From: Candidatus Olsenella pullistercoris
Lineage (GTDB): Bacteria; Actinomycetota; Coriobacteriia; Coriobacteriales; Atopobiaceae
Reading direction: 5' to 3'
DNA: 47,015 nt
Assembly (NCBI GenBank): GCA_019116525.1
Contig: DXBM01000062.1
Coordinates: 1-47,015, forward strand
The translations under genes and the position numbers were made by a program. This document shows, one piece after another, positions 2,469 to 27,616 of this stretch. Position 1 is the stretch's first letter. Every line of letters starts with the position of its first letter. The notes beneath the pieces are model-generated. The model had not been told where the DNA came from. It saw only the letters and a program-made list of their open reading frames with translations, and made no database searches.

Positions 2469-3872
2469 ATGCGCATCTTCGTCGATCGCGAGGCAGAGCT
2501 TCAGGCCCTTGAGCGCGAGTACGCACGCGAGGGGTCCTCCTTCGTCGTTGTCTACGGTCGTCGCCGGGTTGGTAAGACCGAGCTCATCTCCCGGTTCATT
2601 CGTAACAGACGTTCTCTCTATTACCTGGCGACGGAGGAGCCCGAGCTCCAGAACCTCGAGAGCTTCCAGTCCGTGGCGGCCGACTTCCTCCAGAGCGACC
2701 TGCTCCGGGCCGCGCGCCTCTCGCGCTGGGAGGAAGTCTTCCGTGAGATCGCCCGAACGTGCGGCCCCACGGATGAGCGTGCCGTCATCGTCATCGACGA
2801 GTTTCAGTACCTCGGCAGGGCAAACCCTGCCTATCCGTCGATCTTCCAGCGCATCTGGGACACGATGCTCAAAGACGCCAACGTCATGCTCGTTCTCTGC
2901 GGCTCGCTCATCTCGCTGATGCGCGACCAGGTTCTCTCGGAAGAGAGCCCGCTCTACGGTCGCCGCACGGCGCAGATCAGAATGGGTCAGATCCCCTTCT
3001 CGCACTACCAGGAGTTCCTTCCGGGACGCTCAACGCGAGAGCTGGTGGAACGCTACGCCGTGACCGGAGGCGTTCCCAAGTACATCGAGCTCTTCAATGA
3101 CGAGAAGGACGTCTACTCCGCAATCTCCGCCAACGTCTTGGACCGCAGCGGCTTTCTCTACGACGAGCCAAACTTCCTGCTCCAGCGCGAGGTGCCTGAT
3201 GTGGGAACCTACTTTGCCCTCATCCGTGCGGTTGCAGGGGGAGCGCATCGTCCGAGTGAGATTTCGCGCTCATTTGGGGTCAGGCAGACGAGCTTGGGCA
3301 AGTACCTCAAGACCCTTATCGACTTGGACGTGCTCGAGCGCCAGGTGCCCGTCACGGAGAGCAACCCCGACAAGAGCAAGAAGAGCCTCTATCGGATAAA
3401 GGATAACTTCCTCCAGTTCTGGTTCCGGTTCGTGCTGCCCAACCTGAGCTATCTGGAGACGGGCCGCACGGCTGCCGTCGAGAAGCGCATCCGAGAGCAC
3501 TTCATCGACGGGCATGTGGCATACGTGTACGAGGATGTCTGTCGCGAGCGCCTGTGGGATCTGGAGGACTCCGGAGAGCTTGGGTTCGTGCCGGAGCGCG
3601 TCGGCCGCTGGTGGTCGGGGAGTGACGAGATCGACGTTGTCGGCCTGAGCGCGAGCGAGGGTCGTGCCGTCTGGGGCGAGTGCAAGTTCTGGAAGGATCC
3701 CGTCGGCGCGAACGTACTGCGAGCACTTGAGGAGAAGGCGTCGCGTGTCCCGTGGGAGCGGGATGGGCGGACGGACGCTTTTGCACTCTTCAGTGCGAGC
3801 GGCTTTACGGACGAGCTGCGGGAGATAGCTGCGGCGCGAGGCGACGTGGCGCTCGTCGACGACTCGGAGTAG
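2469..3872 (+). CDS. Archaeal-type ATPase with DUF234 C-terminal domain
   Basis: 467 residues. The N-terminal P-loop ATPase has Walker A GRRRVGKT at 30-37 and Walker B VIVIDEFQYL with Asp110-Glu111. A winged-helix-like region follows at about 260-300. The C-terminal DUF234 domain has EIDVVGL then WGECKFW, an (E/D)xxx...ExK arrangement typical of a PD-(D/E)xK nuclease-like fold. The family is common in archaea and anaerobic bacteria; its function is not settled, with proposed roles in DNA transactions or regulation. The gene is alone behind an unusual palindromic promoter. RBS GAGAGGAG precedes the ATG. Confidence 0.8.
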   Translation: MRIFVDREAELQALEREYAREGSSFVVVYGRRRVGKTELISRFIRNRRSLYYLATEEPELQNLESFQSVAADFLQSDLLRAARLSRWEEVFREIARTCGPTDERAVIVIDEFQYLGRANPAYPSIFQRIWDTMLKDANVMLVLCGSLISLMRDQVLSEESPLYGRRTAQIRMGQIPFSHYQEFLPGRSTRELVERYAVTGGVPKYIELFNDEKDVYSAISANVLDRSGFLYDEPNFLLQREVPDVGTYFALIRAVAGGAHRPSEISRSFGVRQTSLGKYLKTLIDLDVLERQVPVTESNPDKSKKSLYRIKDNFLQFWFRFVLPNLSYLETGRTAAVEKRIREHFIDGHVAYVYEDVCRERLWDLEDSGELGFVPERVGRWWSGSDEIDVVGLSASEGRAVWGECKFWKDPVGANVLRALEEKASRVPWERDGRTDAFALFSASGFTDELREIAAARGDVALVDDSE

Positions 3873-11376: not shown

Positions 11377-14300
11377 CTAGCTCATCGGGTATGTGGACGT
11401 CAGGCTGCGGTACTTCTCGTAAAACGCCTTCAGGGCGTCGAGCACCTTGTGGCGCTTCTCGCCGTATGGGTTGCCCTTGGCAAAGCGAGACACCGGCCGC
11501 ATGATCCTGGAGATGGCAGTCCCCGCCTCGGGCACGGCTCCCGCGACGAATGACTCGCTGACGAGCGCCCTGGTCTCCTCCGGCTTCAGTCGGTTCTCCT
11601 CGACGATGTCGTCGAGATCGCGCTCCATCGAATCAGAGACGTGGCGCCGCCACTCGCGAGCCACGGCCTCGTGTCGCTCCGCCTCCGGCATGGAGACGAT
11701 GTCGACGCGCGCCTCCGCGCCGTCGAACCCAACCGCGCGCAGGAACTCCTCGATGAGCTCGGCCTTGTCGCGCAGCTCCGGCGAGGACGCGACCGCGCTG
11801 CGGATCTTGTCGGCGATCTCCTTGTCCTGCACGTTGTCGCCGTGGCGCTGCTCGACGAGCATGAGGATGTAGTCGATGTTGATCTCTACCTGTCTGACGA
11901 GCTCCATCTCGAAGGTCAGGTCGTCGCCGATGTCGACGAGGTCGGCCTTGCGCTGGCGGCGGTACTTGTCGGCGATGTCGAGGTAGTGGCTCTGGTAGTC
12001 CTGGAGCTCGCGCTCGCCCATGGGGTCGTCTGCGGCGAAGTCGTCGAAGCATGAGAGGATGTTGCGGAGCCTGAGGATCTGTCCGAACGTCTTCACGAGG
12101 TCCTTCTCGGCCTCCTCGCCGAGCAGGTCGAACCCGCCGTCGAGCGGGAAGTCGATCCGCAGGTGCTCGAGAGCCTCGGCGTAGCGCTGGAAGTAGACCT
12201 CGTAGGGCTTGAGCAGCACGATGCCGCCTGCGTCCGGGTCGCCGAAGAGCGCGAGCGCCTCGTCAACGCGCTCGGAGAGGTCGCGGAAGCACACGATGTT
12301 ACCGAACGTCTTCACTGAGTTGAGGATGCGGTTGGTGCGGCTGAACGCCTGGATGAGGCCGTGCATGCGCAGGTTCTTGTCCACCCAGAGGGTGTTGAGC
12401 GTCTTGGCGTCGAAACCCGTGAGGAACATGTCGACCACGATGAGCAGGTCGAGCTCGCGGTTCTTCATGCGCTCGGAGACGTCCTTGTAGTAGTTGTCGA
12501 ACCCCTTTGAGTCGGTGCCGCAGCTCGTGCCGTACATCGCGTTGTAGTCTGCTATGGCGGCGTCGAGGAATTCGCGATCGGCCTTCGGCATGCCGTTCGT
12601 GTCCATCGCCTCCTCGGAGAGCATGCCCTGCCCATCGTCCTCGTCGCCGTTGGCGGCGTAGGTGAAGATGGTCGCGACCTTGAGGTCGAACCCGGGGCGC
12701 TCGGCGAGGAGCTCCTTGATTTGCGCGTAGTAGGCCTTCGCCGAGCCGATGGAGTCGCATGCAAGGATGGAGTTGAAGCCGCGCCGGCGCTGGCCCTTGT
12801 ACTGATAACTTGACCCGTCACGCTTGGTCTTAATGTTGTAGTTGTCGAGAATGTATTCGCTTACCAGGCGGATACGCTTCGGGTTTTGCCACGCCGTATT
12901 GGTGTCGATGCCCTCCACAAGAGCATCAGCACTGCCGTTGCGACGGCGAAAAGTCTTGACGTAGTCGACCTTGAAGGGCAGGACGTTGCCGTGGTCGATG
13001 GCGTTCACCACGGTGTACTTGTGCAGGCAGTCGCCGAACGCCTGCTGCGTGGTCTTGAGGTTGGGGTCGCCGCCCGAGCTCGCGTTGACGGCGAAGATGG
13101 GCGTCCCGGTGAAACCGAACAGCATGTAGTTCTTGAAGGCCTTGGTAATGGCCTTGTGCATCTTGCCGAACTGCGAGCGGTGGCACTCGTCGAAGATGAA
13201 GACGACGTTGCGCGAGAAGACGGGGTGCTTGCGGTCGGCCTTTGAGAGGTAAGACGCGAGCTTCTGGATCGTAGTGACACAAATCCGCTTGTCGGCCGCC
13301 GTAGACTCGAGGTTCCTCACGAGCGCGGCGGTGTTGGAGGAGCCGTTCACCGCGCCAGGCTGGAACTTGTTGTACTCCTTCATGGTCTGGTAGTCGAGGT
13401 CCTTGCGGTCGACGACGAAGAGCACCTTGTCCACACCCGCCATGCGCGAGGCGAGCTGCGCCGCCTTGAAGGATGTGAGCGTCTTGCCCGAGCCGGTGGT
13501 GTGCCAGACGTAGCCGCCCGCAGCGACGGTGCCGAGACGCCGTCTGTCCGAGAGCGCGATGAGGATGCGGTTGAGAATGCGCTCGGTGGCGCAGATCTGG
13601 TACGGCCGCATGACCATGAGCTCGTCGGACACGTTGAGCACGCAGTAGTGCGTGAGCACCATGAGCAGCGTGCCGCGCGAGAGGAACGACGCCGCGAACG
13701 GCACGAGGTCGGTGATGCGGCGGTTGGCGGCGTCCGTCCACCAGCTCGTGAACTGGTAGGACGCACTCGTCCTCTTGCCCCGCTCCGAATGCGTCTTCTT
13801 CCAGCGCGTGGTGTTGGAGTAGTACTTGGTGTCCGTGCCGTTGGAGATCACGAAGATCTGCACGTACTCGAAGAGTCCCGACTCCGACCAGAAGCTCTCG
13901 CGCTGGTAGCGCTCGATCTGGTTGAACGCCTCGCGCAGCGGCACGCCGCGGCGCTTGAGCTCGATGTGCACGAGCGGCAGGCCGTTCACCAGTATGGTGA
14001 CATCGTAGCGGTTCTTGTGCGCGCCCTCGTTGGCCTCGTACTGGTTGAGCACCTGAAGCCGGTTGCGGTGGATGTGGTCGCGGTCGAGGAGCTTGACGTT
14101 GACGAGCGTCCCGTCGTGCATCTGGAAGTCGATGACCGGCGAGCGCTGGATGCGAGCTGCCTTCTCGACGATGCCGTCTGTCGCGTTGGCGATGTGGGTC
14201 GAGAAGAGCGTGTCCCAGTCCTCGTCCGCGAACGCGATGCCGTTCAGCGCCTCGATTTGACTTCGCAGGTTGGAGACGAGGCCCGCCTGGTCCGTGACGT

Positions 14301-14703
14301 CGATGCGCTCGTACCCCTGTGAGACGAGCTGCGCGATGAGACTCCCCTCGAGCTCGGCCTCGGACTGGTATGCAGAGCCCGTTCCGGGCGCGCAGGGCGC
14401 CTTGGCACAGACGGTGGACTCAGGACCCTCGAGCAGGATGGAATACGTCTTCTTGCCGAGAGAAACCCCGACGTCGCCATCGGACGACGGCACCCTCGGC
14501 TCGCTATCGTATTCGATTACAATCGAAGATGCGGTTGGCGAACCATCATATTCGACGGCAACCGAGGAGCCGGACGAGCTGTCATATTCGACAGCAACGT
14601 AATCGACCCTATCTTTACCACCGTACTCAATTGCTTCAAGCGACTGGCTCTCTCCACTGTCGTATTTGATGGATATGCGCTTTGCGGCACCGTCATCGCC
14701 CAT
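11377..14703 (-). CDS. hsdR: Type I restriction enzyme R (helicase-nuclease) subunit
   Basis: 1108 residues, full length. The nuclease domain has Asp234 (RYDVTILV) and Glu248-Leu-Lys250 (HIELKRRG). The SF2 motor has Walker A TTGSGKT at 402-408, DECH at 505-508, FTGTP and a QAFSRTNRIL motif VI. It translocates DNA and cleaves far from the recognition site in an R2M2S complex. Its ATG overlaps the hsdS stop by one base and is preceded by AAGGAGG. The first 68 residues are odd: five degenerate repeats of [IV]-[EK]-Y-[DG]-[SG] about 12-14 residues apart, not typical of HsdR. All key residues are intact, so the enzyme is probably functional. Confidence 0.93.
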   Translation of the reverse strand: MGDDGAAKRISIKYDSGESQSLEAIEYGGKDRVDYVAVEYDSSSGSSVAVEYDGSPTASSIVIEYDSEPRVPSSDGDVGVSLGKKTYSILLEGPESTVCAKAPCAPGTGSAYQSEAELEGSLIAQLVSQGYERIDVTDQAGLVSNLRSQIEALNGIAFADEDWDTLFSTHIANATDGIVEKAARIQRSPVIDFQMHDGTLVNVKLLDRDHIHRNRLQVLNQYEANEGAHKNRYDVTILVNGLPLVHIELKRRGVPLREAFNQIERYQRESFWSESGLFEYVQIFVISNGTDTKYYSNTTRWKKTHSERGKRTSASYQFTSWWTDAANRRITDLVPFAASFLSRGTLLMVLTHYCVLNVSDELMVMRPYQICATERILNRILIALSDRRRLGTVAAGGYVWHTTGSGKTLTSFKAAQLASRMAGVDKVLFVVDRKDLDYQTMKEYNKFQPGAVNGSSNTAALVRNLESTAADKRICVTTIQKLASYLSKADRKHPVFSRNVVFIFDECHRSQFGKMHKAITKAFKNYMLFGFTGTPIFAVNASSGGDPNLKTTQQAFGDCLHKYTVVNAIDHGNVLPFKVDYVKTFRRRNGSADALVEGIDTNTAWQNPKRIRLVSEYILDNYNIKTKRDGSSYQYKGQRRRGFNSILACDSIGSAKAYYAQIKELLAERPGFDLKVATIFTYAANGDEDDGQGMLSEEAMDTNGMPKADREFLDAAIADYNAMYGTSCGTDSKGFDNYYKDVSERMKNRELDLLIVVDMFLTGFDAKTLNTLWVDKNLRMHGLIQAFSRTNRILNSVKTFGNIVCFRDLSERVDEALALFGDPDAGGIVLLKPYEVYFQRYAEALEHLRIDFPLDGGFDLLGEEAEKDLVKTFGQILRLRNILSCFDDFAADDPMGERELQDYQSHYLDIADKYRRQRKADLVDIGDDLTFEMELVRQVEINIDYILMLVEQRHGDNVQDKEIADKIRSAVASSPELRDKAELIEEFLRAVGFDGAEARVDIVSMPEAERHEAVAREWRRHVSDSMERDLDDIVEENRLKPEETRALVSESFVAGAVPEAGTAISRIMRPVSRFAKGNPYGEKRHKVLDALKAFYEKYRSLTSTYPMS

Positions 14704-15896
14704 CAGGCGACCTCCTTACGCGGAAAGTCGAGCAGCTTGTCGCGGTAGTACTCGTATTGCTGGCGGCGAGCCGCGATTTCGGCGGGTAGGCCATCGGCGA
14801 GCGAGGTGGTGAGGGCGTCGAAGCGATCGAGGATGTCGACGACGCGCCGTTGCACCTCGAGAGGTGGAACCTCGACCTTAAGCCGCTTCAAGTCCTTTGC
14901 GTTTACCGCCGGCGTTCCTCCTTCGTTCATCAGAGCAACTATCTCTTTTGACTTGCCTTGCAGCGTATAAAACAGATAACGGTTCATAATCCTATTGTTT
15001 GAAGAGCGTATGCGGTAGCACAGGGGTCCACACCAGAACTTTCCTGCCTGGTAGCCAACATAACCAATTCCACCTTGCCCACGCGATGGCGTGGTCACCG
15101 TATCTCCCTCTGTGTTGTACTCATCCGTGAATCCAGAGTATGTGGTGCCGGCATTTACATAAGGAAAATTACGACCATTATCTACGGTAATACTGCTCGG
15201 CTTTTGGCCAGTATTAATCTTGGCGATATCTCCCAATACAGCGATGGAAACCTCGCCGCCCGCCATTTCTTCGAGGCTTTCGCGCGAGAGCAGGAGGTCG
15301 CGGTAGTGGGCGTATTGCGCCTTCCGCGCCTCCAGCTCCGTCTCCAGCTCCGTCTCCAGCTCCGCGAAGGAGTCTAACACCCGCACGACCTCTCGTTGGA
15401 TATCAAGGGGCGGGAACGGCAACTCAATCTTCGCCATGTTCTCGCCGCTTACACGAAGCACTTTCGTGCCAGTGATGTAGCGCTTCTTCTGCTTCTGGAA
15501 TTGGTCTGAACAAAAAAGATATGCAACGTACTTCGAGTCCTGCTCGTGAGAGAAGATGTAGGCGTCCCCGCTCACGGCACACGGCTCGTCGCCAAGCCAT
15601 GCGACGCATTTGCAGACGTCCTCCTCGTTCTCGCTCGTTGTCGCAATCACAAGGTCGCCGGGCTCAGCCTTTTTACGGCCTGCATAGAGCTCCTTGCTGA
15701 TGAACGACCTTGTCTTTGTAGCAGACAGTCCGTAGCAGGTGTATACCTGACCGTAATGAATGCAGGGCCTACCGCCCTCGACGAAGTCTTTCTTCTGGAT
15801 GCCCGACCCCCGGGTGAAGGATCCGATTTCACCCAGTTTTTTATACTCAACCCCATCAGGGCAGAAATGTCTGAGCAGCTTATCGATTCGTCCCAT
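14703..15896 (-). CDS. hsdS: Type I restriction-modification specificity subunit
   Basis: 397 residues with the usual two half-subunits: TRD1 about 15-165, conserved helix 1 about 170-205, TRD2 about 215-355, and conserved helix 2 to the end. Each TRD ends in the family pattern (LPFPPLDIQREVV and VEVPPLEVQRRVV). The subunit chooses the bipartite DNA target for both methylation and cleavage. The first spacer helix holds a tandem 12-bp repeat encoding ELET-ELET-ELEA (residues 179-190), which would set the distance between the two half-sites. AGGAGAAG precedes the ATG. The gene overlaps the DUF4145 gene by 17 bases and hsdR by one. The TRD regions are AT-richer than the rest, typical of exchanged TRDs. 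Confidence 0.92.
   Translation of the reverse strand: MGRIDKLLRHFCPDGVEYKKLGEIGSFTRGSGIQKKDFVEGGRPCIHYGQVYTCYGLSATKTRSFISKELYAGRKKAEPGDLVIATTSENEEDVCKCVAWLGDEPCAVSGDAYIFSHEQDSKYVAYLFCSDQFQKQKKRYITGTKVLRVSGENMAKIELPFPPLDIQREVVRVLDSFAELETELETELEARKAQYAHYRDLLLSRESLEEMAGGEVSIAVLGDIAKINTGQKPSSITVDNGRNFPYVNAGTTYSGFTDEYNTEGDTVTTPSRGQGGIGYVGYQAGKFWCGPLCYRIRSSNNRIMNRYLFYTLQGKSKEIVALMNEGGTPAVNAKDLKRLKVEVPPLEVQRRVVDILDRFDALTTSLADGLPAEIAARRQQYEYYRDKLLDFPRKEVA
15331..15364 (-). repeat. 12-bp tandem repeat in the hsdS spacer helix
   Basis: The + strand shows TCCAGCTCCGTC twice exactly (15331-15342, 15343-15354) followed by TCCAGCTCCG (15355-15364), about 2.8 copies. It encodes Glu-Leu-Glu-Thr repeats on the minus strand. 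Because the unit is 12 bases, gain or loss keeps the frame while lengthening or shortening the helix by four residues. Confidence 0.85.
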
Positions 15897-16593
15897 TGCT
15901 CTTCTCCTGCTGTGCTTGCCTTCTTCTATTTGCGTATTCCATCGCTTGCGAGACTAGGGATGGGTTTGAGTACAAGTCATCGATTACGGAATCAAGAATT
16001 TTGACTACGATTTCCGTGTACTCTCTATCGACCTGCTCGAGCACGTTATGCACGTAGTCGTTACCGCAGAGACGTATGGCTGTGGCCGCATCTGCCGTGC
16101 GTGAGGTGATCTTTCCCGCCCTCTTTAGGTCCTCTATGCGTTCATACAGCTTTTTCTTGGACGGTACTTCCTCTTGATTGGCAACAATGCCCTCCATGAC
16201 GCTTCTTGCAAGTATCACTGCGGCACGATCCGCTCCAATTTCGTGGCATTTGTGAACCTCGCTGGCCATTGAGGCGATATCCTCGGGTGCGTTTGAGTAG
16301 ACCTTGCCCATGGGCTGAATCGGGAGCCATCGAATAATATGATTCTCAGGGTCGTAACCTAAAGTGCATTCTGCTTCAGATGTTTCTACCTCTGCGATGT
16401 TCGGAAAGCCGCAGTTGGCGCAGGAGAATATCAAAAGAGATTTATTCTTATCCCAATCAGCATCTGCCGAAAACCTCCAGTCGGGAAAAGCCGGGATGTG
16501 CTGGCCGCCGTAGTACGGAGTCCCGTTAACATTCTCATCGGGGCATACCATTTGCGCCAGCTGATGGCAGTGCCAACAAATCGTCGACGTCAT
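15880..16593 (-). CDS. DUF4145-like zinc-ribbon protein inside the R-M operon
   Basis: 237 residues from the ATG at 16591-16593 behind GAGGAT. An N-terminal zinc ribbon is built from CWHC (residues 6-9) and a later CANC pair. The C-terminal half (IGADRAAVILARSVMEGIV ... LYERIEDLKRAGKIT ... AIRLCGNDYVH) is the helical DUF4145 pattern, found alone or fused to R-M proteins, including some HsdR subunits. It follows hsdM by 4 bases and overlaps the hsdS start, so it is expressed as part of the Type I system. Its role is unknown; a regulator or accessory subunit of the complex is the natural inference. Confidence 0.75.
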   Translation of the reverse strand: MTSTICWHCHQLAQMVCPDENVNGTPYYGGQHIPAFPDWRFSADADWDKNKSLLIFSCANCGFPNIAEVETSEAECTLGYDPENHIIRWLPIQPMGKVYSNAPEDIASMASEVHKCHEIGADRAAVILARSVMEGIVANQEEVPSKKKLYERIEDLKRAGKITSRTADAATAIRLCGNDYVHNVLEQVDREYTEIVVKILDSVIDDLYSNPSLVSQAMEYANRRRQAQQEKSNGTNR

Positions 16594-16597
16594 ATCC

Positions 16598-18163
16598 TCA
16601 CGCCTCCAATTCCGCGACGATAGCATCAATCTGCTCGCGCAGCTCCTGCTCGCGGGCGACGATTCTGCGGATGCGCTCGTTAAGCTCTGTAATGTCAATC
16701 TTCTCGCGGGTATCGGCCTTCTCGACCCACGTGCCCACCGAAAGGTTGTAAGAGTTCTCGCCGCCGATCTCCTCAATGCCGACAAGTTTGGAGAAGTGTT
16801 CCTCCTCGCTGCGGTCGTGCACCGCCCGGTAGATGCGCTCGATGTTCTCAGGCATGAGCTTGTTCTTGTTGCCAACGTGCGAGAACTCCTCGGAGGCGTC
16901 CACGAAAAGCACGCGGTCGTCCGCCTTCGACTTGGAGAGAACGATGACGCACACGGCGATGGTGACGCCGAAGAAGAGGTTCACGGGAAGCTGGATAACG
17001 GCCTCAACATAGTTACCATCGACGAGGTACTTGCGGATCTTCTGCTCCGCGCCGCCACGGTAGAGGACGCCGGGGAACTCGACGATGGCGGCTTTCCCGT
17101 TCGACGAGAGCCAGGAGAGCATGTGCATAGTGAACGCGAGGTCGGCCTTGGACTTGGGTGCGAGTACGCCGGCAGGCGCGAAGCGCGGGTCGTTGATGAG
17201 TGTGGGGTCCTCGTCGCCAACCCACTTCACCGAGTAGGGTGGGTTGGAGACGATGGCGTCGAAGGGCTCGTCGTCCCAGTGCAGCGGGTTGGTGAGCGTG
17301 TCTCCGCGCGCAATGTTGAAGCGGTCGAAGTTGATGCGGTGCAGGAACATGTTCATGCGGCAGAGGTTGTAGGTGGTGGGGTTGATTTCCTGCCCGAAGT
17401 AGCCCACGCGAACGTTCTCCTGCCCGAGCAGCTTGGCGAACTTGAGCAGGAGCGATCCCGAGCCGCAGGCGGGGTCGTAGACCTTGTCCACGCTCGCGCG
17501 ATCGCCGACGACGATGCGGGCGAGCAACTCGGAAACCTCAGGCGGGGTGAAGAACTCGCCGCCCGACTTGCCTGCGTTGGACGCGTACATGTTCATGAGG
17601 TACTCGTAGGCATCGCCGAAGAGGTCGATCCGGGCATCGCGGACGCTGCCGAAGTCGAGGTCGCGGATGCCCTCGATGATCTTGGCGAGGCGCGCGTTGC
17701 GCTCTGTGAGGTCGGCACCGAGGCGGTTGCTCGTGACGTCGACATCGTCGAAGAGCCCCTTGAAGTCGTCCTCGGAGCGCGTGCCCACGCTTGAGGCCTC
17801 GACAGCGTCGAAGATCGCCTTGATATGGACGTTGAGCTCGGGATCCTTGTCGGGCGCCTTCGCGACGTTCTGGAAGAGCTGCGACGGGAGAATGAAGAAG
17901 CCCTTCTCCTCGGTGACGTCTTCGCGAGCGGCTTCTGCCTCTCCATCAGAAAGCTCCGCATACGAAAATGATGCGTCTCCCGCCTCGCGTTCGCCCTCGT
18001 CGATGAACTCGGCAAGGTCCTCTGAGATGAAGCGGTAGAACAGGAAGCAGAGGATGTACGACTTGAAGTCCCATCCGTCGACGGCACCACGAACCTCGTC
18101 CGCGATGCCCCAGATGGTCTTGAACAGCTCGCTTCGTTGAGCCTCTCGTGTGTCTTGTGCCAT
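16598..18163 (-). CDS. hsdM: Type I restriction-modification N6-adenine methyltransferase
   Basis: 521 residues from the ATG at 18161-18163, preceded by GGAAGG; an in-frame ATG 20 codons upstream lacks support and would begin inside the spacer. An HsdM_N helical domain (about 10-165) precedes the Rossmann methylase. Motif I is DPACGSG at 230-236 and motif IV is NPPY at 307-310, the SAM-binding and adenine-flipping elements. It methylates the site chosen by HsdS and with HsdR forms the restriction complex. It follows the 177-residue gene by 52 bases and no separate promoter is evident, so it may be transcribed from the operator-controlled promoter at 20.5 kb. Confidence 0.93.
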
Positions 18164-18215
18164 GAGGCACCTTCCCTTCTTGTTAGCGCCTATAGAAATC
18201 GTAACGGATGCAAGC

Positions 18216-18749
18216 TCAGGCAAACTGCTCCTTGAGCTCCCTGAGGGCGTTTCTGAAGCTGCTGTTGGTAATCTTGAGCTCGTTCTTCGTTAACAGCTTG
18301 AACAGCTGGGGGTAATCGTTGGGGTTGTTCTCCACTCGAGCGATGAAGCTGCTCGCCTCCGCGGCGCCCGGGGTGCTGTGCGGCATGGGGCCGGCGAAGA
18401 TGGCGACATAGCCCATGCTGCCCCTGATCTTCCCGAAGTCGAAGTGCTTGAGCTGCTTGTACTCCGTCTTGAACTCAATTCGATCTGAGTCGAAGCCTTC
18501 TTTTCTCGCCGCGCTGCGGAGCTTGTCGACGGACACTTGGCTCGCACCAAGAACGATGATTTTGCCGATCTCAAGAGGGCTGGGGTCTTCGTCGCGGCTC
18601 AGCAGGTCTGACATCCCCAGACTTGCGAGCAAGTCTTCAAGCTCTCCCATGCGGTTGGCTCTCGTCAGGGCTTCCAGCAGCTCCAGATGCATGCGCCCCA
18701 TCATCGCCTCATAGAGGTCGTCGAGCTCTTGTTGGGTAAGCGGCGCCAA
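18216..18749 (-). CDS. Unknown 177-residue protein between the methylase-TRD fusion and hsdM
   Basis: Starts at TTG (18747-18749) behind GAGGAGG, which lies in the end of the upstream gene; this coupling decides the start. A helical N-terminus (about 1-55) is followed by an alpha/beta segment with [10 protein letters not shown] (61-70), a second strand region around DRIEFKTEY, then [14 protein letters not shown], and a terminal [15 protein letters not shown] helix. The Gly-rich strand-turn and the GPMPH loop suggest a Rossmann-like or nucleotide-binding fold. I recall similar uncharacterised proteins but no named family. Its fixed place after a methylase-TRD fusion suggests it acts with it. 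Confidence 0.65.
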
Positions 18750-18751
18750 CG

Positions 18752-20476
18752 CTAGGCCTCCTCGTCGAAGAGGTCCACGAGTTCCTTCCGGGCGCGGGAA
18801 AGCCGTAGCTTGAGGACACCAATCTCATCGAGCTTGGCTTGGTAGGCAGCAGCCACGCGCGCCTGCTTCTCCACACCCTCCTGGGGAATCTTGATTCTGT
18901 TCAGTTCGCCCAGCGGAAGGTTGGGGATGACGGCACCCTTCGATGCGCGGGCAAGCGTCTCCTTGCCATCGGGGCTGTTCAGAAAGGCTGCGACGTAGTA
19001 TGGATCGACCTTCTCGGTGTCGAGCTTGATGATGTATAGGTTGCCGTTCGCGAGAATCTTCTGCCCTTCAGGCACCTCGGCCACGGCGACCTTGTAGGGC
19101 GCGCCGTTCTTGGAGAGCAGCAGATCACCGGTCTCGAGGCAGTACTTCTCGAGCTTGGGGTCCAGCTCCTTGAGGAATGGGAGCTCGTCGTCGATGGAAC
19201 CGTCCACGATGTTCGAGAGGTTCAGGTAGCGAATGCCCGTGTCTTCCTCGCAGGTGAGCTCGTCGAGTTCCTTCGCTCGCAGTCCCGCCCCGCGCGTGAC
19301 GTCGAGGATTACGCTCCTCATCTCGACGGGGTTTGCCAGCCTGATCTCCTTCTGCAGAAAGCGGTTCGCTGAGAGCGTGTACTCGCGCTCCGCGAGCTTG
19401 CTTATGGGCGCCATCGCGCTTTTGTCGGAATCCGTCTCCATGCGGGTCAAGATTTCTTGGATGTCGTCCTCCGAAAGGGTGCGGCCGCGACGCTCCTTGG
19501 TCCCGAGGTCGGTGGCGTCGACAAGCCTGATGCCGTCGGTGTTGCCATGACCGAGAACCACCAGCGTTGTGCCGATGTTGGTCCACGGGGAGAACACTCC
19601 CGCTGGCAGCGAGATGGCCGCGCGGACCCATCCGTTCTCGATGAAGTACCTGCGGACTCGCGCGTCCGCGCCGTTGAAGGCGGAGCCATTCGTCATGATA
19701 CCGACCGCGATGCCGCCCTCATTGATGGAGTCGATGAGGAGGCGGTTGAACACCCAGTCCGCGGAGGTCGGGCGACCATACTCGGATAATCCCTTGAGAA
19801 CGTTCTCCAGGTATTCCGACCTGCCCTCGAGATGCTTCGTTCTCATGCCCCACGGGTAGTTCGAGAAGGCCTTGTCGGCCTTCTCGTCGGCGAGCGAGCG
19901 CTCGAAGTACTCGAACATGTCCTCCCACTCGTAGGCGACTTCAGAGCCGAGAACCCTTGAGCGGATGCGGGCAGCGGCAACTAGGCTGCGATTGAGCTCA
20001 ACGCCAACGAGCTTCGCTCCCTTGCCCGTACCTGCGACGCGCTCGAGGAAGCTCCCGACCCCGCTGCCGAAATCGACGACCAGATCGCCGCCATGCACGT
20101 CGAGAATCTCGCAAACGAGGGCGGCGATGCCATCAGGGGTCGAGCACTCTCCGCTCATGGGGCTGTCAGCGGCCGGCCCTGAGAGGAGGTACGCGAGAAG
20201 GTCATCCATGGAGGTCTTCTCCGTCATCGCGAGGAGTTGCTCGACCTCGATATCGGAGGCGTTTTCATCGAGTGATTTGAGGATAAGCTGGTCGCCTTTC
20301 GCAGCGACCTCAATCACCTCGGAGAGCGAGCCGTAGGTATTTTCGCTGGATTTGATGGTGTAAGCGAGATATGCGCAGAAGTAGGCTTGAACGCCGGACG
20401 GGAGCCCAACGATTCCCCTCATGGAATTGGAGACTCGCCAAATTGCCTCAGTGTTGCTTGAAACGTTGCTCAGCAA
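18752..20476 (-). CDS. N6-adenine methyltransferase fused to a single HsdS-like target-recognition domain
   Basis: 574 residues from the TTG at 20474-20476, chosen because AAAGGGG lies 6 bases upstream and a consensus promoter lies just before it; the frame stays open upstream but reads through the promoter and yedK. Residues 1-100 are helical. The methylase has motif I VVDFGSGVG (Asp135), an acidic residue at 160, and a variant motif IV, NYPW at 206-209, in place of NPPY. From about residue 365 comes one TRD (IRYLNLSNIVDGSI ... ETGDLLLSKNG ... IPNLPLGELNRIKIP) and a coiled-coil end. No nuclease domain is visible. It could methylate DNA alone or guard a system with its partner. Confidence 0.8.
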   Translation of the reverse strand: MLSNVSSNTEAIWRVSNSMRGIVGLPSGVQAYFCAYLAYTIKSSENTYGSLSEVIEVAAKGDQLILKSLDENASDIEVEQLLAMTEKTSMDDLLAYLLSGPAADSPMSGECSTPDGIAALVCEILDVHGGDLVVDFGSGVGSFLERVAGTGKGAKLVGVELNRSLVAAARIRSRVLGSEVAYEWEDMFEYFERSLADEKADKAFSNYPWGMRTKHLEGRSEYLENVLKGLSEYGRPTSADWVFNRLLIDSINEGGIAVGIMTNGSAFNGADARVRRYFIENGWVRAAISLPAGVFSPWTNIGTTLVVLGHGNTDGIRLVDATDLGTKERRGRTLSEDDIQEILTRMETDSDKSAMAPISKLAEREYTLSANRFLQKEIRLANPVEMRSVILDVTRGAGLRAKELDELTCEEDTGIRYLNLSNIVDGSIDDELPFLKELDPKLEKYCLETGDLLLSKNGAPYKVAVAEVPEGQKILANGNLYIIKLDTEKVDPYYVAAFLNSPDGKETLARASKGAVIPNLPLGELNRIKIPQEGVEKQARVAAAYQAKLDEIGVLKLRLSRARKELVDLFDEEA

Positions 20477-20495
20477 TGTAAGCCCCTTTCGAACC

Positions 20496-20577
20496 TGGTT
20501 ATTGGTAACCGTGACTGAAATCACTATATGGTTCTCGCTGGTTATTGTCAACCAAGAATTTTGGTTTTTTGTAACCA
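20496..20577 (-). promoter_or_regulatory. Consensus promoter with three 16-bp palindromic operators
   Basis: Reading the minus strand, TTGACA (20546-20551) and TATAGT (20523-20528) are separated by exactly 17 bases. Three copies of TGGTTANNAAWAACCA-type palindromes lie at 20562-20577, 20539-20554 and 20496-20511. The middle one contains the -35 and the last lies downstream of the start point. Centre spacings are 23 and 43 bases, near two and four DNA turns. This is a repressor-controlled promoter for the gene starting at 20476 and, by lack of later promoters, probably the entire R-M operon. No regulator gene is adjacent, so the repressor may be encoded elsewhere or be one of the operon products. 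Confidence 0.8.
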
Positions 20578-20679: not shown

Positions 20680-21297
20680 TTAGCGTTCGGGTTTCGCAGT
20701 GAGTTCGATGTGGATTCTGTTTGCTAGTTCTGCAAAGTCTGGCCCGAGCCACTCGTCCGATTCGCCGGGACCGAGGACAAGGGGCATGCGGTCGTGGATG
20801 GGCGCCACGCTGGCGCTGGGCTCCGTGGTGACGATGGAGAAGCGTCCGTCCTGCTGGACAGTGGCGAGAAGGAACGCGCGAGCTCCGGGCATGCGGAAGC
20901 GGTACTGGCGGCGGACGGTCCTGCCGGTCTTCTCGCTGACGACCTTCTCGGTGGAGCTTGACTCGTAGAATGCGCGCACCGGGACGAGGCAGCGGCCCTT
21001 TGCTATAGCCTTTGCCCACATGCCGCGACGGCCGCGCCGGAGCTGCTCGAGCGCGGACTCGATGCGCGTGTTGAACACGGCATGGGGTCTGCCATCGAGC
21101 GGGAAGCCCCACTCGAGCCGGGCGACCCTGAGGCCGCCCGCGCCGCTCGTAACGAAGAGCGGGACGGTTGAGCCGGGGCGGACGTCATGGACGGGATCGG
21201 GGCACTCGATGAACCTGATGCCGTGGCGGCCCGCGCCGCGCGCGTCGAGCACGGTCTGCGCCTCCTCCGCCGTGAGCGGGCTGAACCTCACGCACAT
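20680..21297 (-). CDS. yedK: SOS response-associated peptidase (YedK/HMCES family)
   Basis: 205 residues starting MCVRF. The self-cleaving family exposes Cys2 as the catalytic N-terminal residue; it forms a stable thiazolidine DNA-protein crosslink with abasic sites in single-stranded DNA. The other conserved elements are here: FNTRIES (Asn76-Thr-Arg78), Glu112 in AFYES and His168 in PIHDRMP. The protein acts in the cytoplasm at stalled forks. It sits on the same strand as the R-M operon, ending about 100 bases before that promoter, and its upstream region is directly abutted by the IS21-type element, which may have separated it from its original promoter. Confidence 0.92.
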   Translation of the reverse strand: MCVRFSPLTAEEAQTVLDARGAGRHGIRFIECPDPVHDVRPGSTVPLFVTSGAGGLRVARLEWGFPLDGRPHAVFNTRIESALEQLRRGRRGMWAKAIAKGRCLVPVRAFYESSSTEKVVSEKTGRTVRRQYRFRMPGARAFLLATVQQDGRFSIVTTEPSASVAPIHDRMPLVLGPGESDEWLGPDFAELANRIHIELTAKPER

Positions 21298-21504: not shown

Positions 21505-23021
21505 ATGTCCAAGAAGAAAAAGATCCTCCTGATGCTCGCGAAGGGAGGGGCCTCGCAGTCGGAGGTCGCGGCAACCCTGCACGCGAGCAAGCGTGACGTC
21601 TCCGCGTACGTCAGGGCGCTGCGCGAGCGGGCGCTGACCTTCGACGACGTCTCCGCGATGGGCGCGGCGGACGTCGAGGGGGATGCTGGCGCCGTCGGCG
21701 GGCCCGCCCGCCGAGAGCGCCTACCTGCGGCCCGACATGGGAGCCCTGGTCGAGCGCAAGAGGAGCAACCGCAAGCTAACGGTCAAGATGTTCTGGATGG
21801 AGCACTGCGAGGCCGCCGCGGCCGGTATGCTCGCCTACTCGTACCAGACGTTCTGCGGGATGTTCGCGAGGGCGGCGGAGAAGGCGTGGGCGACCAGGAG
21901 GCTCGCCCACGAGCCGGGAGCCAAGGCGTATATAGACTGGGTCGGGGATACCTCCTCGCTCACCGACCGCCTCACGGGCTCGAAGACGAAGGTGTACGTG
22001 ATTGTGGTGGCGCTGTCGTACTCGGGCAGGTTCTGGGCGCAGGGCTTCACCGACATGCGCCAGCGCTCGTGGCAGGAGGGCCAGCCCCGCGCCCTCGAGG
22101 ACTTCGGCGGGGCGCCTAGGATGCTCGTGCCCGACAACGCCGCGACCGCGACGGACCGCTCGTCTGTCTACGTCACGCTCATCAACGGGGAGTACGCCCG
22201 CTTCGCCGAGCACTACGGGGCGGTGGTCGTCCCGGCCAAGATCCGCCGCCCGCGCGGCAAGGCGGTCGCCGAGTCGACGGTCGACCTCGTCGAGAGATGG
22301 ATAGTGGCGTCCGCCAACGAGTATGTCATTCTACACGCTCGAGGAGTTCAACGGGTTCTGTCTGGAGCGCGTGCGGTGGCTGAACGCCCGCCCGTTCTCC
22401 GCGAAAGAGGGCTCGCGCGACTCGGTCTACGAGGCCGAGGAGCGCCCGCACATGCAGCCGCTGCCCTCGGAGCGCTACGAGATGTGCGAGTGGCGCAGCT
22501 GCAAGGTAGCTCCCGACTACCATGTCACCGTGGACTATATACGCTACTCCGTTCCCTTCCGGCTGATCGGGGAGCAGGTCGATGTCAGACTCTCCGACTC
22601 GCGGGTCACTGTCATGTCCGGCGGCGGGGCCGTCGCCGAGCATGCCAGGCTCCGCGGGCGAAAGGGGCAGTACTCCACGCTCGTCGAGCATATGCCGCCC
22701 TCGCACGCGGCAATGGACTCGCCCTGGTCGCCCAAGCGCTTCTCGTCGTGGGCGCACCGGATAGGGGCCGAGACCGGGCAGGCGATCGACCGCTTGCTCG
22801 CCAGCCGGCCGATCGTGGAGCAGGCGTTCGTGCCGGCGCGGAACATACTCGGTCTCTCCAAGGCGCACGCGCTCGGCGCCGTGCCGAGCTACACCTCCCT
22901 CAAGAACACGATCCTCGCGGTCAGGGCGGCCGCTGGCGACGGGCTGGTCGACCGCGCGAAGTCGGCCGGGCGCTTGCGCGGCGCCGACGCCTACCGGAGG
23001 GGCGGTGACGGGGCATGCTAA
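21505..23021 (+). pseudogene. istA: IS21-family transposase istA with two frameshifts
   Basis: Begins at the ATG at 21505 behind GGAAAGGGG. The N-terminal HTH (ILLMLAKGGASQSEVAATLH) is in frame 1. At a run of five G (21678-21682) the frame changes to the one encoding the DDE core (AYIDWVGDTSSL ... APRMLVPDNAATATDRS). Near 22325-22335 it changes again to the frame encoding FYTLEEFNGFCLERVRWLNARPF and the C-terminus, ending at 23021. Together they make a normal IstA of about 500 residues. Two 1-base errors imply the copy is inactive, or sequencing errors at homopolymers. Confidence 0.85.
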
Positions 23022-23767
23022 CCGAGGAGCACTTCAACATGCTCACGAGGTTCAGGGTGAGGGCCATGGGCGACAAGCTGCGAGAGATGGTTGAGAACGC
23101 GTCCTACGACCGCCACCCCTTCGAGGAGCGCATGGAGATGCTGATCGAGGCGGAGGCCTCGGCCAGACGCGGCCGCAAGGTCGCCAAGCTCGTGCGCGAG
23201 GCGCGCTTCAAACTGCCGACCGCCTGCGTCGAGGACGTCGTCTACCTGAAGGAGCGCAAGCTCAGCCGCGACCGCGTCGCGCGGCTCGCGTCCTGCGACT
23301 GGGTTGAGGTGAACGAGGTCGTCGTGATCATATCCAAGACCGGGTGCGGCAAGAGCTTCCTCCGGCAGGCGCTCGGCAACGCAGCCTGCCGGAAGCTCTT
23401 CACGGTTCGCTACGCCCGCCTCGCCGACATCATGGACGACCTGAACCGCTGCCGCGCGGCGGCGGACGGGAGCTTCTACCAGCACATGGACGCCTACAAG
23501 ACCATCCAGCTGCTCATCGTCGACGACTTTATGACCACGCCGATCGCGACGCAAAACGCCGTCGACCTGTTCGAGATCATGGAGGCCAGGGAGGGCCGGG
23601 CGGCCACCCTCATCGCCTCGCAGCTCGAGCCCAACGAGTGGCATCTCAGGATCGAGGGCGAGCTGATGGCCGACTCCATCCTCAACAGGATAGCGACCGG
23701 GTCGCGCTACATCGACCTCGACGGGCCGAACATGCGCGAGTACTTCGCGAAGCGGAGGGAGCCGTAG
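23015..23767 (+). CDS. istB: IS21-family helper ATPase IstB
   Basis: 250 residues, overlapping the istA end by 7 bases as is usual in IS21. DnaC/DnaA-like AAA+ ATPase: Walker A SKTGCGKS (about residues 107-114), Walker B LLIVDDF, and the C-terminal sequence ADSILNRIATGSRYIDLDG typical of IstB with its arginine residues. It assembles on target DNA and delivers it to IstA. It appears intact, but its transposase partner is broken. TTG and ATG starts are possible; the ATG at 23015 retains the conserved N-terminal helix. Confidence 0.9.
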   Translation: MLTEEHFNMLTRFRVRAMGDKLREMVENASYDRHPFEERMEMLIEAEASARRGRKVAKLVREARFKLPTACVEDVVYLKERKLSRDRVARLASCDWVEVNEVVVIISKTGCGKSFLRQALGNAACRKLFTVRYARLADIMDDLNRCRAAADGSFYQHMDAYKTIQLLIVDDFMTTPIATQNAVDLFEIMEAREGRAATLIASQLEPNEWHLRIEGELMADSILNRIATGSRYIDLDGPNMREYFAKRREP

Positions 23768-23974: not shown

Positions 23975-26572
23975 TTATGCACGCTGCCTTCGTCTCCGTA
24001 TTTCTTTGGTCCACTTGAAGAGTTCCTCTATATCCTCGCTAAGCTCCTCCACAGTCGGAACCTGCTCAAGAGGCGCGAGCGGGTCGTCGTGGGCATCGGT
24101 AATTCGGGAGCACTTTGACATAGCGAGATCAACAGTCTCTATATCCTCTTTCGTGATGTCATCAAGGCATCTCAGCTGCTGGGTATGAATCGCTCTCTGC
24201 GCCCTCTGGACCACTTCGTTCAAGAGAACTTCTTCGACCGCACGCTCCCATGTTGATCTTAGTTTGTTGTAGCAGCTCGTGACTGCTGCATCGCGATCGC
24301 CGTCCGTCTCAAACGCTCCCGCCTTCTCTCTCCCCTTGATATCTGTAGCCATGTCTTTGAGCTTGCTGATGCGCTCCTTTACCCTGCAGGCGTCCCAGTC
24401 CAGCTCATCAACAACAATGCCCGTGATGCTGCCCCTCTTGTGTACGGTCCGGTACTCAACGGGTATCTGAGCTTCGCGGGCAACGTCGGACAGGTCAACG
24501 CAAAAGAGGGGCTCGTGGGTGAAAATGACAACGGGCCGACAGCCCGATTCCTTCACAATGCGCTCAGCTACCGTGCGTCTCCAGATGTGATCGAGAGACG
24601 TTATCGGGTCGTCCAGCACCACCGTTGACGAGGTGGGCATGACGTCGAGCAGGGCGAAGAAGCCGGCGAGGGCCACCACCTTCTGCTCGCCTTCGCTGAG
24701 GACGCGGCTCGCCCTCTCCGACGTGCCCTTAAGGGTGATTTTTTGCCGCTCCTGACCGGACCGGACGTGCGCGGACATCGAGACTCGCTGGTCGGTTGCC
24801 CTGAGCTTCCGGAGCTCGTCCCGGAAGCACTGCTGCATCCGCTCGACTATCTCGACTCTCGATACGTTCGAGATGAGGGAGGATATGCCTCTTGTGCCGC
24901 ACTCGCTCCTAATGGACTGCAGCTCCCTTTTGGTTGCCCTCGTGCCCGCATCCGAAACGATGGTGGCCGCCCTCTCGGCGACCCATCCCCGACTTCTAAG
25001 CGCTAGGAGCTCCTCGTTCATCCTTTCGACAGCCCCGGGCTTCGCACTCTCCTTGGCGGTCTCGAGCTTTCTGTCTGCCTCCTCTATCTCGGAGCGAACC
25101 GACTTCCCCATGTCCTCTGTCGCCTTCGAGACTCTTTCCAGTGTCTCCTTGGCCGGCACGGTATCCATACCCTGGATTTGCTCGACTAGCAGGTCAAACT
25201 GATTTCTGGCGTCCTCCGACGACAGGATGCTGACGACCCTCTCATCCCCTAAGACTGCCGTAACCGTAGCGACGAACCGATCTACTAGCTTCTTGGCCTT
25301 GTTCTTTTTGTCGGAGAGGTTCTTCTCGGCTGCCCCCGTAACATATTGCTCAAAGACATTCATACGCTCGGAGGCCTCTTCGGACAATGGCTGCTGGCAG
25401 AGCGGGCACAGCGCGCCTGAGCCGCCGTATGGGTAGCGCTCTTCTAGATAAGCGACATCATCCGAGTACCTGCGAGCCGCCTCCCAGAGCTCCCGCCACT
25501 CTTCCCCTCCGATGCCGTCCAGTTTCGAGTTTTGGTTCAGCAGCTTCCTTGCGGCACACGCGGCGCCCTCCGCTTTCTCCAGCTCGTCAGTCGCCTTCTC
25601 GTAGGTCTCGATGAAAGGGCTTTGGCAGCATGTATACAGTGCGGCGAGATTAGCGCGCATCTTTCTTAACTGGTCAAGCCTTCTCTCCAGCATTGGGATT
25701 TCGGAGTTGGGATCCGACTTAATCAGCGAGGGCAGTTCTGACAGGCGCTTGGCATCCTTTGCTGTCATCTCTGCTTGCCGAACGAACCCCTCCGCCTCCT
25801 CAGAGTCGTCGAGACAAAGGGCCTTCTGAATCAGGACGGAGGATCTCAGTTCGTTGGGGACCGACCGCTCGTCCAGCACTTCATCCCGAGCTTCTTCCTC
25901 GTCCCTAATCCGGTCGCCCACGGATGATACAAGCCCGGAGAAGCGTGTTAGGGCCTCGATGATTCTGGGGTTATACAGGATTTCGTTGTCTCTGTTCTCC
26001 ACTTCCCGCGCGGCGCACGCCGAGTCGAAGAACGCGACCTCGGGGAGGAAGGGATATTCTTTCCCTTCTCCCTCCGACCAGGAGAGAGTCTCCGCGACCC
26101 CGTCTATGACCGCCTCGATTGACACGGACGTCTCGGCACCTTCTTCGAACACGTTCGATAGAATATCCTCCGCCCCCGACCGCGACGTGCAGGCATTACG
26201 TATGATTCGGCAGAAGCCCGACTTCCCGGACCCGTTTCTCCCATATACAATCGTGAGACCGCTTGTCGCTAAATCGAGCTTTGATCTCGGTGCGAGCGCG
26301 TTGACGCCGCTTGTTGCCGTGACCGACTTCAGCACAACCTCACGCTCGGACATGCCGACGATGTCGAGATCCCCCCGCGAATAAGGCGCTGTGTGCTTGT
26401 CGCTCGCTATTATGCCGTTGATGCCATGGCCTTCGCATGCGGCCTTCGCCAATGCGTCAATATCATCGGAGGAGCATTCTCCCTGCAGAGCAGCGTGCAA
26501 CGCGAGCGAGTACCAGGCAGGCCTTTCTTTGAGCCAGTCATCGATCAACTTTGCAACGTCCTGCCCTTGCAT
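23975..26572 (-). CDS. rloC: SMC-like AAA_13 ATPase, probable RloC/PrrC-type anticodon nuclease
   Basis: 865 residues. Walker A GRNGSGKS at 111-118; long coiled-coil arms around 220-380 and 470-560; a CPLCQ zinc-hook-like motif at 389-393; ABC signature VLSEGEQKVVALAGFFALL; Walker B STVVLDDPITSLDH. The C-terminal domain has Arg772-x3-Glu776 (RSTWE) and His828 (AHDD), the Arg-Glu-His arrangement proposed as the catalytic triad of PrrC/RloC anticodon nucleases. RloC enzymes excise the wobble base of tRNA after DNA damage or phage attack and are often next to Type I R-M loci, as here. AAGGAA precedes the ATG. The symbol is by family and the tRNA target is unproven. Confidence 0.7.
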   Translation of the reverse strand: MQGQDVAKLIDDWLKERPAWYSLALHAALQGECSSDDIDALAKAACEGHGINGIIASDKHTAPYSRGDLDIVGMSEREVVLKSVTATSGVNALAPRSKLDLATSGLTIVYGRNGSGKSGFCRIIRNACTSRSGAEDILSNVFEEGAETSVSIEAVIDGVAETLSWSEGEGKEYPFLPEVAFFDSACAAREVENRDNEILYNPRIIEALTRFSGLVSSVGDRIRDEEEARDEVLDERSVPNELRSSVLIQKALCLDDSEEAEGFVRQAEMTAKDAKRLSELPSLIKSDPNSEIPMLERRLDQLRKMRANLAALYTCCQSPFIETYEKATDELEKAEGAACAARKLLNQNSKLDGIGGEEWRELWEAARRYSDDVAYLEERYPYGGSGALCPLCQQPLSEEASERMNVFEQYVTGAAEKNLSDKKNKAKKLVDRFVATVTAVLGDERVVSILSSEDARNQFDLLVEQIQGMDTVPAKETLERVSKATEDMGKSVRSEIEEADRKLETAKESAKPGAVERMNEELLALRSRGWVAERAATIVSDAGTRATKRELQSIRSECGTRGISSLISNVSRVEIVERMQQCFRDELRKLRATDQRVSMSAHVRSGQERQKITLKGTSERASRVLSEGEQKVVALAGFFALLDVMPTSSTVVLDDPITSLDHIWRRTVAERIVKESGCRPVVIFTHEPLFCVDLSDVAREAQIPVEYRTVHKRGSITGIVVDELDWDACRVKERISKLKDMATDIKGREKAGAFETDGDRDAAVTSCYNKLRSTWERAVEEVLLNEVVQRAQRAIHTQQLRCLDDITKEDIETVDLAMSKCSRITDAHDDPLAPLEQVPTVEELSEDIEELFKWTKEIRRRRQRA

Positions 26573-27535: not shown

Positions 27536-27616
27536 GTGGCTTCCTGGCTAAGGCTCCCTCACCGTGGGCATTGTCTAGAATGGGCTCGTCACCCATCTCG
27601 TCCCTCGGAGCCCATC

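Follow-up and report, generated by a model that had tools for sequence, protein, structure and literature searches.

Organization of the operon and its promoter

The window, i.e., the whole 47,015-nt stretch of Candidatus Olsenella pullistercoris DNA that was analyzed (contig DXBM01000062.1), carries six genes on its minus strand in the order methylase-TRD, P177, hsdM, a DUF4145 gene, hsdS and hsdR. The first gene (18752 to 20476) has a TTG start after AAAGGGG and encodes a 574-aa fusion with the architecture of an HsdM joined to a half-HsdS, which is the proposed operator-binding autoregulator. The second gene (18216 to 18749) encodes P177, a 177-aa protein and putative co-regulator or sensor; its TTG start lies 2 nt past the methylase stop codon and is preceded by AGGAGG. 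A gap of 49 nt separates P177 from hsdM (16598 to 18166; TIGR00497, E 3e-208), and the genes further on overlap or almost touch, namely the DUF4145 gene between hsdM and hsdS (15880 to 16593; Pfam match on 15880 to 16404, start codon chosen by reading), hsdS (14703 to 15896) and hsdR (11377 to 14703, with an EcoR124_C domain). The first-pass annotation had described a pair of genes heading a Type I operon, the second of them coupled to the methylase through a TTG start, bearing the motifs IIVLGAS and GPMPHST and assignable to no family. All of these points hold, with P177 having no family match above cut-off in Pfam and none in NCBIfam or PADLOC, and the DUF4145 gene is an addition to that description. 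A DUF4145 gene that is 77% identical occupies the same position in another locus, L100, and the gene in the window has a weak PADLOC match to PD-T7-4 (E 0.0011).

The methylase has a Pfam N6_Mtase domain (residues 92-379 of the scanned stretch, E 1.4e-25) and a C-terminal part with matches to numerous Type I specificity profiles of PADLOC; it thus combines the N6_Mtase domain and HsdS-type TRD (residues 385-545; 18842 to 19324, minus strand) that mark a Type I methyltransferase. The earlier description of a stand-alone N6-methylase joined to one TRD was therefore correct, as was its report of a variant motif IV, NYPW (residues 206-209; 19850 to 19861, minus strand), and of no nuclease domain, none being found among the Pfam matches of this protein. 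Motif I reads VVDFGSGVG. NYPW departs from the NPP[F/Y/W] given for motif IV of Type I methyltransferases in the accessible text of PMC3874165, and with 43 bits on TIGR00497 the protein falls below the cut-off of 242.75 for the HsdM equivalog. Assignment to the MADS defence system was rejected (MAD2, 29.3 bits vs. a cut-off of 720; MAD5, 34.9 vs. 400). In a structure model (pLDDT 88.1), the methylase ends in a long helix, which is predicted at residues 535-573 (18758 to 18874, minus strand) and may serve in dimerization. The best PDB matches of this model were Type I, IIG and orphan adenine methylases, and the first Foldseek match, 7eew (E 5.2e-23, TM 0.44), showed poor overall superposition (rmsd 25.4).

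Between positions 14500 and 20800, only one promoter-like site was found on the minus strand, TTGACA-17-TATAGT (20523 to 20551; 11/12 consensus), where a shuffled control gave about 2 such sites on both strands together, and no terminator-like site was found on the minus strand over the same range. A lone promoter-like site and no terminator-like site make it likely, as far as can be judged from the sequence, that methylase, P177, hsdM, the DUF4145 gene, hsdS and hsdR are carried on a single transcript. Three copies of the palindrome GGTT-N6-AACC, hereafter called the operator, lie upstream of the methylase start, with copy 1 (20563 to 20576) upstream of the -35 hexamer, copy 2 (20540 to 20553) overlapping it and copy 3 (20497 to 20510) downstream of the -10 hexamer; three copies were reached in 1/100 shuffles of the window. 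The source assembly (1.88 Mb, 81.5% complete) contains six such sites in total, including the three at this promoter. The methylase therefore has a palindromic site at its own promoter, as would a methylase autoregulator of the M.SsoII kind.

The surroundings of the operon hold further genes of interest. A SRAP gene (20680 to 21297, minus strand) is located directly upstream of the operon promoter, and an ORF that reads as SRAP-like is found near a P177 fragment in locus L075. An IS21 element (about 21683 to 23767) lies between the operon and a gene for an AAA_13/SMC-like ATPase with a CPLC zinc-hook-like motif (23975 to 26572, minus strand), which is reminiscent of RloC and PrrC, the anticodon nucleases associated with Type I systems. 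A protein with GmrSD_N, GmrSD_C, RAMA and DUF4268 domains, encoded at 27536 to 30562 on the plus strand, is a candidate for modification-dependent restriction.

The operator at homologous loci

A scan of genome contigs, for which the query was an alignment of the window methylase with a Subdoligranulum homologue (38% identity), identified 31 loci, many of them from MAGs, in Bacillota, Planctomycetes, Alphaproteobacteria, Treponema, Synergistaceae, Saccharibacteria and Collinsella as well as in the cultured gammaproteobacterium Succinimonas amylolytica. Promoter regions of up to 451 bp were compared for the window, L019 and 30 of the 31 scan loci (the fragment L057 was left out), with the near-duplicates L028/L029 and L049/L050/L051/L055 counted separately. 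Among 2,560 bipartite palindromes tested in these 32 regions, GGTT-N6-AACC ranked first; at least one exact copy was present at 24 promoters and at least two copies at 19. It occurs 49 times in 14.4 kb of promoter DNA (3.40 per kb) and 8 times in the remaining 462.7 kb of the loci (0.017 per kb), an enrichment of about 196-fold. Sites at -51 to -25 and at +6 to +27 relative to the -10 hexamer, i.e., flanking the best -35/-10 pair, were found in exact form at 17 of the 32 loci and, with one mismatch allowed, at 26. The six loci that failed this rule were L027, L038, L041, L044, L046 and L052, of which L046 and L052 failed because other words occupy their promoters.

Genome-wide rarity of the operator was dropped as an argument, as GGTT-N6-AACC is common (14-61 copies per genome in 15 host genomes, often no more than a reversed control). 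By comparison, a strict form, GGTTWTNNAWAACC, occurs 49 times in 15 host genomes other than that of the window, whose own operator copies do not match it, and 27 of these occurrences, counted from listed positions, are at the cassette promoter.

Loci identified through P177 (see below) provided a further set, in which 14 loci have upstream DNA (L074 has none). Eight of the 14 carry two or three exact copies of the operator (L076, L083, L084, L099, L100, L102, L103 and L105), with three copies each in L102, L103 and L105 and also in L100, where nearly the whole window operon, with its DUF4145 gene, has an orthologous counterpart. One exact copy is present in L101. In L104, L106, L107 and L108 the operator, by reading, is imperfect or takes another form, and the best palindrome pair was reached in 22/40, 1/40, 1/40 and 3/40 shuffles, respectively.

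Partial covariation of operator and TRD

Several loci with a divergent TRD have a different repeated palindrome, in two copies each: GATTAT-NN-ATAATC (GATTATCAATAATC) at the L052 promoter and AGGATAT-NN-ATATCCT (AGGATATNNATATCCT) at the L046 promoter (both 0/100 shuffles), and GGCT-N6-AGCC at the L085 promoter (two copies reached in 0/200 shuffles). Two copies were likewise found in the distant relatives L022 (TAGTAT-N5-ATACTA) and L021 (AGTAAT-N3-ATTACT), both with 0/100 shuffles. As distant methylase-TRD genes on these two plasmids, L021 from Salimicrobium and L022 from Lactococcus, head Type I operons with palindromes of their own, the data suggest that the operator principle may extend beyond the methylase-P177 family. 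In L049, L050, L051 and L055, where the TRD is 30-32% identical to that of the window, an asymmetric one-mismatch operator is present twice. A test for symmetric palindrome pairs was not significant for L049, L041 and the distant relatives L020 and L023, and gave 7/100 shuffles for L042.

Most loci with the same operator have a TRD that is 46-61% identical to that of the window, and within 19 exact-operator loci (a set leaving out L019, L048, L053, L054 and later-found loci) conservation of the TRD exceeds that of the catalytic core in all 171 pairs (60.0 vs. 45.9%). When the comparison was extended to all 32 loci having both the exact operator and a TRD, this was true for 444 of 496 pairs (51.9 vs. 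40.7%), so that the statement that the TRD is always the more conserved part was cut back; the 52 failing pairs mostly involve L054, L053 and L100, the last in 13 of them. TRD identity between exact- and variant-operator loci is 39.6%, and among 13 variant-operator loci the TRD exceeds the core in only 44 of 78 pairs.

L053 and L054 have the exact operator despite TRDs that are 35% and 27% identical to that of the window and average 38% and 29% identity to the 19 main loci, which is no higher than the identity of the core. Operator and TRD are thus not always coupled, which weakens the covariation argument. L052 and L053, the closest pair of the set by core identity (57%), are 68% identical in the second TRD part, 65% in P177, 39% in the first TRD part and 30% in the N-terminal domain; the N-terminal domain therefore differs even more than the first TRD part, which counts against the regulator model proposed below. 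The N-terminal 108 residues are helical in the methylase model and about 20% identical among the 19 loci that share one operator. Retention of the operator next to the divergent TRDs of L053 and L054 would also be compatible with binding of the operator by an unlinked host regulator, but the same operator is found in the same place in several phyla, all of which would need the same regulator, and we consider this explanation very unlikely.

The P177 partner

P177 follows the methylase in 25 of the 31 scan loci, among them L038, where it is broken, and L042, where the contig end cuts it; L048, L056 and L057 end too early to show it, and L030, L036 and L039 have another gene in its place. A P177 profile search of 18 host genomes found the protein in 15 and did not find it in the genomes of L030, L036 and L039. 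Searches led by the P177 profile found it in 3 of 391 genomes of the class of L032's genome, 8 of 397 genomes of the family of L028's genome and 14 of 297 genomes of the window's order, as well as at one locus among viral contigs. All 15 near-full-length new copies (L074, which is interrupted, L076, L083-L085 and L099-L108) are preceded by such a methylase, a count that leaves out the already-known copies G000, G448, G452 and G1296 (the locus in L027's genome), the fragments L075, L088, L110 and L111 and the longer proteins L086, L087 and L109. The possibility raised at the outset, that P177 homologues occur mainly without such methylases, is contradicted by these counts. In the three longer proteins (L086:4805-6013, L087:4329-5588 and L109:3664-5826), the P177 C-terminal domain forms the end of a protein without a methylase, and that of L086 adjoins ORFs that by reading resemble a WYL regulator and a UvrD-type helicase.

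With single P177 sequences as queries, plasmids, viral contigs and genome contigs yielded no relative, and phages yielded just two weak matches (E 0.4); a phylum search with P0001 gave weak matches only (best 0.002), taken as chance, and the methylase pair A2 had no match in viral contigs. Plasmid matches from Enterococcus, Thermus and Persicobacter were left out of the analysis. The 151-aa protein that follows the methylase in Salimicrobium is not P177-like, and a relationship between P177 and DUF2325 was rejected (hhalign against a Salimicrobium DUF2325 protein, probability 1.4%). P177, for which the first-pass annotation raised a possible role as a nucleotide-binding partner, is modelled (pLDDT 84.1) as N-terminal helices and a four-stranded, Rossmann-like alpha/beta domain, but no PDB entry reached E 0.001 against this model.

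Tight linkage to the methylase, together with helix-turn-helix hits for some P177 members, all of them sub-threshold, would be consistent with P177 being the DNA-binding repressor and the methylase a bystander or cofactor. This is very unlikely considering that L030, L036 and L039 have two operator copies each despite no P177 match in their genomes, and that L019, for which the search covered the plasmid, has no P177 beside its methylase and also two copies.

Catalytic motif of the methylase family

Motif IV was compared in 47 methylases, including the near-duplicates L028/L029, L049/L050/L051/L055, L103/L105 and L106/L107. Three have NPPF, 31 have an altered motif that retains Asn or Asp and an aromatic residue, and 13 are without one of these. 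The genome-contig scan selected loci matching DK[AI]F[SA][ND]YP or TS[AS]DWVFN and favours YP stretches, so that its motif IV counts are biased; among the 15 methylases found through P177, there are three with NPPF (L102, L103 and L105), five intermediates and seven without a residue. These three meant that a statement that motif IV is never canonical had to be cut back, and NPPF in 3 of 10 methylases of the order-wide search indicates that some members may methylate. By comparison, NPP[FY] was found in 22/22 HsdM-like ORFs of over 250 aa at the same genome-contig-scan loci (21 by a pattern script, that of L054 by a second listing). Motif I is intact in most members but is lost in L085.

An active methylase could modify GGTT-N6-AACC including the operator, in which case methylation state rather than occupancy would switch the promoter. 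The intact motif I of most members, the Asn and aromatic residue retained in NYPF/NYPW, and the combination of NPPF with three exact operators in L102, L103 and L105 fit this alternative, but 13 of the 47 members are missing Asn/Asp or the aromatic residue, L085 retains two GGCT-N6-AGCC copies despite its loss of motif I, and the concentration of 27 of the 49 strict-form sites at the cassette promoter in 15 host genomes looks unlike genome marking. We consider it unlikely. Since several members seem to have lost activity, catalysis is probably not needed for regulation.

A proposed autoregulatory cassette

Taken together, the operator, where it sits on the promoter and how the catalytic motif has decayed in many relatives point to transcriptional autoregulation, and we put the probability that transcription of the operon is regulated by its own methylase-TRD protein at roughly 0.75, on computational grounds. 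The earlier suggestion that the methylase reads a site would agree with the operator evidence. That the pair forms a unit distinct from hsdMSR was also right insofar as it recurs before different Type I sets, but a separate protective unit was not borne out, as the operator, its placement and the motif decay in many relatives favour autoregulation; a transferable autoregulatory cassette is most likely and would fit better.

We infer a mechanism in which the methylase-TRD protein, built like half a Type I methyltransferase with HsdM fused to a half-HsdS, would pair with a second copy through the long C-terminal helix, so that the two TRDs could read both inverted halves of GGTT-N6-AACC. Dimers sitting ahead of, over and immediately past the -35/-10 elements would exclude RNA polymerase and keep the methylase-P177-hsdM-DUF4145-hsdS-hsdR transcript low once the protein suffices, and P177 would most likely serve as a co-regulator, either tuning the repressor or releasing it.

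In the accessible part of PMC6158711, engineered fusions of HsdM with a half-HsdS are described as restricting together with HsdR, and by analogy the methylase-TRD protein could be a second specificity module, paired with HsdR for restriction of a different sequence. The cassette stands before different Type I sets and gene orders, however, blastp finds no Type I gene within the roughly 7.4 kb that follow it at L029 and L044, and the sites are concentrated at its own promoter, all of which renders a second module highly improbable. In L044, the cassette is followed by a gene for a GIY-YIG/DUF4357 protein (2949-3803), the next 7.4 kb being those without a Type I gene in the blastp search.

An extension of the autoregulatory model, which we regard as speculative and rather improbable, is that a methylase half turned transferable transcription factor guards the restriction genes and serves as a decoy sensor for anti-restriction. 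Because the protein still has a Type I methylase's DNA-binding surface, DNA mimics of the Ocr/ArdA type that counter restriction could displace it from its operator, with P177 setting the threshold; if so, anti-restriction proteins would switch the restriction operon on. We know of no regulatory role for 7eew, the first structural match to the methylase model. By its PDB title, that entry is an intact Vibrio vulnificus methylase with Ocr.

Relation to known systems and significance

Parts of this arrangement have precedents, cited here from the accessible portions of the reports. A half-HsdS dimer recognizes GAAN7TTC (PMC2877798), and an HsdM-half-HsdS fusion dimerizes on a palindrome (PMC6158711). 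These engineered fusions and EcoR124INT likewise have one methylase and/or one TRD per chain, and their dimers read a symmetrical bipartite site, as proposed here; they are, however, active methylases or restriction enzymes for which those portions describe no regulatory operator. M.SsoII, a Type II methylase, represses its own gene at a palindrome near the promoter of its R-M system (PMC6100179), which resembles our proposal, but it is a C5-cytosine methylase whose regulatory function sits in a separate N-terminal domain, whereas in the cassette the operator seems to be read by the TRD itself. RptR (PMC12255303) is also the first gene of a Type I operon and encodes a repressor acting at three palindromic repeats in the promoter, but it is a small, all-helical protein with a TAGCTA site, and both the first gene and the operator word, judged by reading, differ here. 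Within the literature on methylase regulators of Type I operons, covered mostly through papers available without subscription, we found no report of a methylase-P177 cassette, but only RptR, M.SsoII, the half-HsdS work, C proteins and WYL regulators; half-HsdS dimers on symmetrical sites and self-repression by a Type II methylase are already published.

A portable regulator with a specificity-type TRD at the promoter would connect restriction specificity with transcription control. To our knowledge, the restraint of Type I systems on entering a new cell is poorly understood. The cassette would also offer natural pairs of TRDs and recognition words and would supply a context for the unnamed P177 protein family.
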